A stretch of 64,000 bases of DNA from Vibrio echinoideorum (GTDB taxonomy: Bacteria; Pseudomonadota; Gammaproteobacteria; Enterobacterales; Vibrionaceae). This document shows positions 62,006 to 63,451 of the stretch, in pieces. A model generated the notes under the pieces. It was not told the DNA's origin and did no database searches. It was given only the letters and a program-made list of their open reading frames with translations. Made by a program: the position numbers and the translations under genes. How positions within the stretch are numbered: the stretch's first letter is position 1; each line of letters opens with the position of its first letter. The DNA lies in NCBI RefSeq assembly GCF_024347455.1, contig NZ_AP025483.1, positions 2,294,001-2,358,000 on the forward strand, written 5' to 3'.

Positions 62006-62074
62006 ATAGCTGAGACATTGATAGATATTTAGTGCGAATATTGGGACTTATTACCCAATAGTGGTAACTATTTG

Positions 62075-62113
62075 AACAAGGGCAACTTTTATCAAGGGTT
62101 GCCCTTGTTTTTT
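62075..62113 (+). terminator. Terminator after the chemoreceptor gene
   Basis: AACAAGGGCAAC ... GTTGCCCTTGTTTTTT: a 12-base stem with T run. Confidence 0.9.
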
Positions 62114-62203
62114 ATGATCTTTGTCATTATATGATTATTAAGGCTTGCTGCTTCCCGTTTTTTTCTTTCACCTTTATGAGCGAGCCGCTATTAAGGAATT
62201 TAT

Positions 62204-63370
62204 ATGGCTGTTCATGTTGGCATTATCGATCAAGATCCCATTCGCTTGATCACCCCACTACTCGATAACCGAACGATCAGCACTCATATCGTGTTCATCG
62301 GTGACAAGAATCAAGTCAGTATTTACCAACGCTTAGACAGCGTTTTGCAAAAACGCGACATTACGAGTGAATTTTTCGAGATCCCAACCCTCGTAAATAC
62401 GTCCGCGATTAAAGAATCTATCCAAAACCTTGCCGAAGACCTCAAAGCTCGTGGAGAAGAAGTGAAACTCAACGCAAGTTGTGGCCTTCGTCACCGCCTA
62501 CTTTCTGTCTACGAAGTATTTCGTACTTACCACTGGCCAATCTTTGTTGTTGAACCAAACAGTGACAAGCTGTGCTGGCTTTACCCGAATGGTAAAGAAG
62601 ATGCACAAGTTCAAGACCGCATCACTATCGACGACTACCTGACTGTGTTCGGCGCTCGCGGTGAATTCAGCGATGTACAGTTGTCTCCGCAACTTGATCA
62701 GAAGCTTTATGAACTGGGTGAACGCTGGGCAAGTAATGCACTAGAACTCGGCCCAGGCCTTGCTACATTGAACTACCTTGCAACGACCTGCCGTAAAGAA
62801 CAGAGGCTTGATGTAGGGTTGTCTGAGAAGCAACAAGGTTATCGCGAACTAAACATGCTGTTGAGCGATTTGGTGGAAGCTAAGATTGCCACTTATGACA
62901 ATGGTATTTTGACGTTTGCCAATGAAGACGCACGACGCTTCTCAAACGGTGAATGGCTAGAGACTTTGGTTCACAGCACAGTTAAACAAATCCAAGATGA
63001 CATGCCGACCATTCAAGATCGCTCTTTGAATGTTCAGGTATATCGCCAATTAGGTGAACGTGAGGTTCGTAATGAGCTTGATGTTGCCTCTGTAGTGAAC
63101 AATAAGCTGCATATCATCGAATGTAAGACCAAAGGTATGCGTGATGATGGCGATGATACCTTGTACAAACTGGAATCGCTTAGAGACCTGCTGGGTGGCC
63201 TACAAGCACGTGCCATGTTAGTGAGCTTCCGTCCTCTTCGTCATAACGACATCACACGAGCAGAAGATCTTGGCCTTGCATTGATTGGCCCTGACGAATT
63301 AAAAGATCTTAAAACACACCTAGCGGCATGGTTTACCGCCGCCGGTGGTGATGAAGATTTAGAGTGCTAA
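62204..63370 (+). CDS. Stand-alone CARF-domain nuclease (VC1899/Card1-type, DUF1887)
   Basis: 388 residues. The N-terminal CARF domain (about 1-145) carries the ligand motif [D/N]-x-[S/T]-x3-[R/K] as NASCGLR (Asn90, Ser92, Arg96). A winged-helix-like middle (about 165-245) follows, then a PD-(D/E)xK nuclease domain with Glu291, Asp293 and Glu306-Cys-Lys308 in RNELDV and HIIECKTKG. In type III CRISPR systems, relatives (Card1, Can2) are switched on by cyclic tetra-adenylate and cut DNA or RNA. This protein resembles V. cholerae VC1899 (structure 1XMX, from memory), which is also outside any CRISPR locus. AAGGAA precedes the ATG. Flanked by a chemoreceptor gene and udp, each with its own terminator, so it is an isolated single gene. 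The activating signal and target are unknown. Confidence 0.9.
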   Translation: MAVHVGIIDQDPIRLITPLLDNRTISTHIVFIGDKNQVSIYQRLDSVLQKRDITSEFFEIPTLVNTSAIKESIQNLAEDLKARGEEVKLNASCGLRHRLLSVYEVFRTYHWPIFVVEPNSDKLCWLYPNGKEDAQVQDRITIDDYLTVFGARGEFSDVQLSPQLDQKLYELGERWASNALELGPGLATLNYLATTCRKEQRLDVGLSEKQQGYRELNMLLSDLVEAKIATYDNGILTFANEDARRFSNGEWLETLVHSTVKQIQDDMPTIQDRSLNVQVYRQLGEREVRNELDVASVVNNKLHIIECKTKGMRDDGDDTLYKLESLRDLLGGLQARAMLVSFRPLRHNDITRAEDLGLALIGPDELKDLKTHLAAWFTAAGGDEDLEC

Positions 63371-63413: not shown

Positions 63414-63451
63414 AAAAAGGCGAATGACTATTGAGTCACTCGCCTTTTTTT
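63414..63451 (+). terminator. Terminator after the CARF nuclease gene
   Basis: AAAAAGGCGAATGACT ATTG AGTCACTCGCCTTTTTTT, a long stem with one mismatch. Confidence 0.92.

Follow-up and report, generated by a model that had tools for sequence, protein, structure and literature searches.

CARF domains are known chiefly as receivers of CRISPR (clustered regularly interspaced short palindromic repeats) second messengers, RtcR, which has no nuclease domain, being an exception. DUF1887 (PF09002) was founded on VC1899 of Vibrio cholerae (PDB 1XMX), whose source genome was noted as CRISPR-free in 2006 and in which Rossmann-like, winged-helix and endonuclease domains were described (PMC1462988). Its CARF domain was described as a plain version of the fold, and every CARF family is stated to include members without a CRISPR link (PMC4012209). 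According to PMC7969007, purified VC1899 does not nick plasmids, has very low RNase activity and is not controlled by cyclic tetra-adenylate (cA4); its pocket residues are listed there, and a degenerate enzyme adrift from CRISPR is suggested. Card1 and Cdn1 are CRISPR effectors which bind cyclic oligoadenylate (cOA), according to the titles of their PDB entries and, for Cdn1, PMC12825302. Here we analyse a stretch of 64,000 nt of Vibrio echinoideorum (NZ_AP025483.1), referred to as the window, which carries the VC1899 orthologue, a CARF nuclease of 388 amino acids (DUF1887 / Card1-like), at 62204..63370 on the plus strand. A preliminary description of the gene had suggested that it would be a system of its own. 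This was not borne out, as the gene product is already known as VC1899/DUF1887, an orphan CARF protein whose structure has been solved and which has been assayed (PMC7969007). Its orphan status is no discovery either, because earlier papers already describe VC1899 as CRISPR-free. Regarding family-wide conservation or a cellular function of the gene, no report was found in the open-licence PubMed Central literature.

We propose, with a probability of roughly 58%, that the gene encodes a functional, vertically inherited CARF nuclease of the Vibrionaceae core genome with a non-cOA ligand of its own, and that it is neither a type III effector nor a decaying remnant. At slightly less than even odds, and therefore tentatively, we further suggest a family-wide, CRISPR-free signalling system, in which a nuclease is gated by its CARF domain through an invariant pocket, acidic with arginine and private to the group, that would respond to an endogenous non-cOA nucleotide or RNA-end signal. 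Comparative evidence supports a maintained CRISPR-free CARF system with a putative ligand of its own and speaks against the published guess of degeneracy.

The open reading frame was identified by Pfam, by sequence match to the PDB (1xmx, E 4.4e-225) and by a predicted model with fold match. On the plus strand it encodes a CARF sensor domain at residues 1-150 (62204..62653; PF23400 at residues 15-145, CARF chains matching approximately residues 1-130), a middle winged-helix region at residues 161-249 (62684..62950; 1XMX domain limits as given in PMC1462988, helices in the model) and a PD-(D/E)xK nuclease domain at residues 240-379 (62921..63340; PF09002, E 3.9e-64). The N-terminal CARF domain, the C-terminal nuclease with Glu, Asp and Glu-x-Lys and the predicted whole-protein Can2/Card1 fold place it in the DUF1887 / Can2-Card1 family; high full-length identity, a common pocket and a vertical gene tree place it in the VC1899 orthologue group. 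The architecture read earlier from the sequence, a CARF sensor joined to a PD-(D/E)xK nuclease with its catalytic core, was thus confirmed by Pfam, fold match and an alignment of 185 proteins. PADLOC models score the gene as the type III CRISPR protein Csx1 (E 3.7e-149). Since this is a core gene, automated surveys may credit most Vibrio with a CRISPR ancillary gene.

Matches were present in 191 of 197 Vibrionaceae genomes (97%), covering 12 of 13 genera, with second matches in G057, G084, G099, G113, G129 and G152. The genomes without a match are G193 (1.1 Mb), G194 (1.0 Mb), G002 (2.1 Mb), G021 (2.6 Mb), G169 (3.1 Mb) and G003 (4.4 Mb in 210 contigs, 94% complete). Outside Vibrionaceae the gene is rare and scattered. 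A sample of the order gave matches in 32 of 295 genomes, 23 of these from Vibrionaceae and 9 from elsewhere; a sample of the class (369 genomes) gave the own genome and 18 others; and among 147 genomes of the family to which Thalassotalea genome G335 belongs, G335 itself was the only match. A mobile origin was rejected, as there were no matches among 50,697 phage records and one among 72,556 plasmid records (Aeromonas media, 30% identity across half of the query).

Vertical inheritance at a fixed chromosomal place, as proposed in the preliminary description, was borne out by monophyletic genera and by synteny. The gene tree comprised 130 proteins, with the root placed on the deepest of them and sequences lacking another label counted as the window's genus; all six genera having at least two sequences were monophyletic (support 0.41, for two sequences, to 1.0). 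Synteny was followed in 80 named Vibrio loci, the best 80 of 148 matching loci, and in 19 further regions, 16 of them from other genera. In the Vibrio loci hinT lies within about 6 kb of the gene in 73 of 80, and the gene for a methyl-accepting chemotaxis protein (MCP) is the next upstream gene in 72 of 80; of the 19 other regions, 13 have udp nearby. The MCP gene was rejected as a partner, since it adjoins the gene in none of these 19 regions, three of which are Vibrio, and no constant operon partner was found among all these loci. The median ratio of nonsynonymous to synonymous substitution rates (dN/dS; Nei-Gojobori, pairs with dS 0.1 to 1, which are not independent) was 0.0177 over 57 pairs; for seven neighbours it was 0.0139 (hinT), 0.0161, 0.0216 (udp), 0.0219 (MCP), 0.0329, 0.0329 and 0.0414. 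In a tree of 147 sequences, all 24 Vibrionaceae proteins included and the deepest member, L180, form one clade with support 1.0 on a stem of 0.71 substitutions per site. Because of this single clade on a long stem and the rare, scattered outsiders, it seems that a protein type which is accessory and in part linked to CRISPR became fixed on one occasion in a Vibrionaceae ancestor, whereupon the pocket changed and was then frozen; the direction of this history is inferred.

Conservation was scored in 185 distinct proteins, supplied by the 80 named loci together with sampled genomes rather than by every one of the 191 carriers; outside this set stand a split copy of 291 amino acids in G016 (L159/L163), a fragment of 152 amino acids (L194) and L180. 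The catalytic residues Glu253, Glu291, Asp293, Glu306 and Lys308 were each found in 185/185. Equally invariant were, on the pocket side, Asp9, Asp11, Pro12 and Arg14 of the first pocket loop (62228..62245, plus strand; pocket positions as given in PMC7969007), Asn90, Ser92, Gly94, Arg96 and His97 of the second loop after strand 4 (62471..62494, plus strand; by alignment), Val115 and Glu117. Asp34, a published pocket residue, was rejected as a conserved position (91/185). Compared with the rest of the CARF domain, five of its nine published pocket positions are invariant (hypergeometric P 0.014) and seven reach 99% conservation or more (P 0.0010). When all 383 columns serve as the reference, in 129 proteins, 8/10 pocket positions are kept in at least 128 of 129 (P 0.015). 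L180, at 42% identity, keeps Asp9, Asp11, Pro12, Arg14, Asn90, Ser92, Gly94 and Arg96 and carries Lys97, Tyr115 and Asp117. The five catalytic residues are also all present in 98 of 99 wider relatives retrieved with a Thalassotalea query (102 proteins, 3 under 340 aa left out). Loss of the active site across relatives, which would have spoken against a nuclease, was therefore seen in neither close nor distant relatives.

A conserved pocket may have reasons other than sensing. The CARF domain could be a dimer platform or an enzyme, for example a phosphodiesterase acting through Asp9, Asp11 and His97, with a constitutive nuclease engaged in nucleic-acid processing. We consider this improbable, but it is the best-surviving alternative. 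We know of no catalytic test of the CARF domain, which we count against it, and ligand-free VC1899 is little active (PMC7969007), which is more in keeping with a locked enzyme than with constitutive action.

The published suggestion for VC1899 is a degenerate leftover, i.e. a former CRISPR effector now without its ligand and with little of its activity left. It draws on the very low RNase activity, the missing nicking and cA4 response and the replaced cA4-binding residues reported for VC1899 (PMC7969007), to which the losable gene of G169 and the split copy of G016 may be added. We regard it as unlikely, at about half the weight of a pocket without sensor function. In a leftover, decay is expected early in the replaced pocket and the active site, yet both are invariant (185/185), the gene is kept in 191/197 genomes, and its dN/dS is 0.018. 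Because the active site is so strictly kept, a locked, ligand-free enzyme would explain the weak activity of purified VC1899 at least as well as a dead one.

The preliminary description had called the enzyme stand-alone and CRISPR-free, and had pointed to a type III or cyclase locus elsewhere in the genome as what could account for it. A type III or SMODS-type cyclase locus was looked for and none was found. In the own genome, Cas1 and SMODS (PF18144) gave 0 matches, SMODS being the one model of CGAS/DncV-like nucleotidyltransferases (CD-NTases) tried; there was no type III CRISPR locus as judged from the lack of Cas1 and of any non-GGDEF Cas10, csm/cmr genes not being searched one by one. The Cas10 palm model PF22335 gave three matches at E <= 0.001 and four at E <= 0.01, two of them above the model cut-off. 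Each of the four proved to be a GGDEF protein (two by Pfam, two by motif), and a Cas10 of the own genome was rejected. PF22335 cross-reacts with GGDEF proteins at approximately 25 to 36 bits and also matches in E. coli; hence its matches in 161/197 family genomes, of which 119 exceed the cut-off, are not taken as Cas10. Of the 197 genomes, 50 have Cas1 and 17 have SMODS (15 above cut-off). With SMODS this sporadic in the family and absent from the own genome, a cyclase of the cyclic-oligonucleotide-based anti-phage signalling system (CBASS) type is disfavoured as the signal source which had been considered. A strong Cas10 match (E <= 3.5e-28) is present in six genomes, and at least eight more (G009, G013, G018, G037, G042, G099, G125, G156) show a weaker palm match within 25 kb of a Cas1 match; the weak palm matches were mostly not read, and the true number of such genomes may differ. 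All 14 genomes carry the gene, corresponding to 14 of 191 carriers. G013 has its type III genes on a contig which also bears a second homologue of its own, at 25% identity.

The preliminary description had also likened the protein to Card1/Can2-type enzymes, which answer cOA. The fold is indeed shared, but the pocket differs from the cOA pocket of Can2, so the response to cOA does not carry over. The cA4-contact set Ser, Thr, Lys and Tyr is absent from the VC1899 group, which has Asp9, a variable position 34, Arg96 and Val115. Most Can2-like relatives carry Ser9, Gln11 and Pro14 in the first pocket loop. With the Can2 pattern S-x-Q...K (Ser9, Gln11, Lys96), 14/18 relatives are from genomes with Cas10, versus 1/5 with an acidic first loop (Fisher P 0.033), a weak contrast as the rows are not independent. 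Of the 27 rows, 4 belong to neither class; partial proteins G477 and G783, without a readable pocket, and fragment G441 were dropped. The Cas10 negatives come from a search at a limit of 1e-10, in which the divergent Cas10 proteins of G290 and G013 went undetected; these two were corrected after reading of the loci, not every other negative was read likewise, and Cas10 may thus be undercounted among them. The 99 relatives of the Thalassotalea query comprise 43 of the acidic class, 33 of the Can2 class, 21 of neither and 2 unreadable. Judged by these alignments, the pocket evolves among relatives and the active site does not. An effector of cOA or of a CBASS cyclase, serving the sporadic type III or CD-NTase loci of the family, has the fold of Can2, Card1 and Cdn1 and the 14 co-occurring genomes on its side, but is very unlikely, given the small share of carriers with such loci (14/191; SMODS 17/197, Cas1 50/197), the replaced cA4 contacts and the failure of cA4 to activate VC1899 (reported in PMC7969007), and the separate 25%-identical homologue on the type III contig of G013.

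Some further relatives were observed. Acidic-class members include some named Pseudoalteromonas and Shewanella. Chromosome 2 of G015, a Vibrionaceae genome, bears a second copy (L191) which is 37% identical and has an acidic pocket; among its few scanned neighbours no cas gene was recognised, and Thaumasiovibrio occultus P0169 has an identical pocket string. Metagenome proteins P0160-P0162, P0167 and P0171 form a further pocket class, N-G-S-M or similar with N-A-T-G-G-[DN]-R-Y-V-E-P, which is neither Can2-like nor VC1899-like.

Several points weigh against a functional CARF nuclease with its own ligand. To our knowledge, no ligand is known for the CARF domain of the VC1899 group. Conserved pocket residues could also serve folding or dimer contacts, and the 185 rows are related and hence not independent tests. 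Against all 383 columns (129 proteins), the 6/10 invariant pocket positions are not a significant excess (P 0.10); the excess is weaker here because the nuclease domain is even more conserved. In G016, whose genome is 95% complete, the copy is split across two frames, which may be a sequencing error or a real break. G169, a Vibrio sharing 80 to 96% identity with V. metoecus in its local genes, has lost the gene with zero remnant (L249), the MCP gene and the next downstream gene both being still in place; the gene is therefore not essential. For a losable gene present in 97% of the sampled genomes, conditional use (stress, infection) would fit better than a role in an essential process. The G290 relative (37% identity; L184:7269-8411, L239:3246-5069), with the acidic pocket D-N-E-P, N-A-S-T-G-S-H, sits in a type III-D locus which encodes a 607-aa GGDD Cas10, RAMPs, Cas6, a reverse transcriptase-Cas1 protein, a CARF protein with transmembrane segment and a Csm6-type protein. 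Its ligand may be an unusual Cas10 product. This locus led us to reject the notion that the acidic pocket never meets Cas10, and the acidity of a pocket is by itself no proof against a Cas10 product. Finally, VC1899 was nearly inactive in the assays described in PMC7969007, which makes even its nuclease function in the cell putative.

For the favoured non-cOA CARF nuclease, we infer ligand class, gating, cell substrate and biological role as follows. The protein would be a homodimer, as suggested by 1XMX and the Can2 papers, in which the paired CARF domains may form a pocket of Asp9, Asp11, Arg14, Ser92, Arg96 and His97, specialised for a non-cOA ligand. This would most likely be an endogenous nucleotide or RNA-derived molecule present family-wide. 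Examples would be a cyclic dinucleotide and RNA ends carrying a 2',3'-cyclic phosphate, the kind of ligand taken up by the CARF domain of RtcR. With the ligand bound, the two nuclease domains would close and start a metal-dependent cleavage that probably targets RNA, leading to slowed growth or to clearing of foreign or damaged RNA under stress or infection. If this is true, sensing by CARF domains is a permanent chromosomal function of a whole bacterial family, independent of CRISPR. If the strong selection and the invariant non-cA4 pocket hold, Vibrio may use a new signal, either a nucleotide or one arising from RNA damage, and 1XMX, an orphan put down as degenerate, would become a ready tool for finding it.

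Concerning the flanks of the gene, a terminator search placed a terminator-like hairpin 3' of the upstream MCP gene (62074..62110, plus strand) and a terminator-like inverted repeat 3' of the CARF nuclease gene (63414..63449), which was reported on the minus strand and has its T-run on the plus strand. RNA folding predicts a leader stem-loop 5' of the start codon (62142..62186, plus strand). Exact GCTTGC..GCAAGC arms occur in 42 of 81 Vibrio leaders just 5' of the ribosome-binding site, and stems of at least 6 in 51 Vibrio leaders, versus a mean of 25 and a maximum of 38 in 31 base shuffles. The leader fold energy is mildly low (median z -0.95), and an Rfam scan of the leader gave no family at gathering score. 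A regulatory role of the stem-loop is a guess. In another genus (L166, L124, L125), a different stem, TTACACAT / ATGTGTAA, lies at a similar place.

Among the known systems, Can2 of Sulfobacillus (7BDV) forms its cA4 site from Ser19, Thr42, Lys99 and Tyr118, equivalent to Asp9, Asp34, Arg96 and Val115 in VC1899; it is described as linked to type III loci and activated by cA4 (PMC7969007), whereas the Vibrionaceae protein is usually without a CRISPR partner. Card1 (6WXW/6XL1) and Cdn1 (9U49/8Z4I) have the same fold at 16 to 18% identity to the window protein. RtcR, likened here by description, also has a CARF domain outside CRISPR with an RNA-derived ligand, namely tRNA fragments with cyclic phosphate ends, but is described as a transcription activator (PMC7790460). 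The homologue of Thalassotalea sp. G2M2-11 (G335; L185:5749-8485, P0121) resembles the window protein in its non-canonical pocket (G-x-D-P, N-A-S-N-G-S-R; in full G-D-D-P / N-A-S-N-G-S-R) and in its kept catalytic residues; it differs in being only 33% identical and accessory, present in 1/147 genomes of its family, and begins 25 bases 3' of a gene resembling a type IV secretion system coupling protein (TraG/TrwB, with a weak mad8 match too). VC1899 (1XMX) itself is the closest of all: the window protein is its V. splendidus-group counterpart, with no difference of substance.
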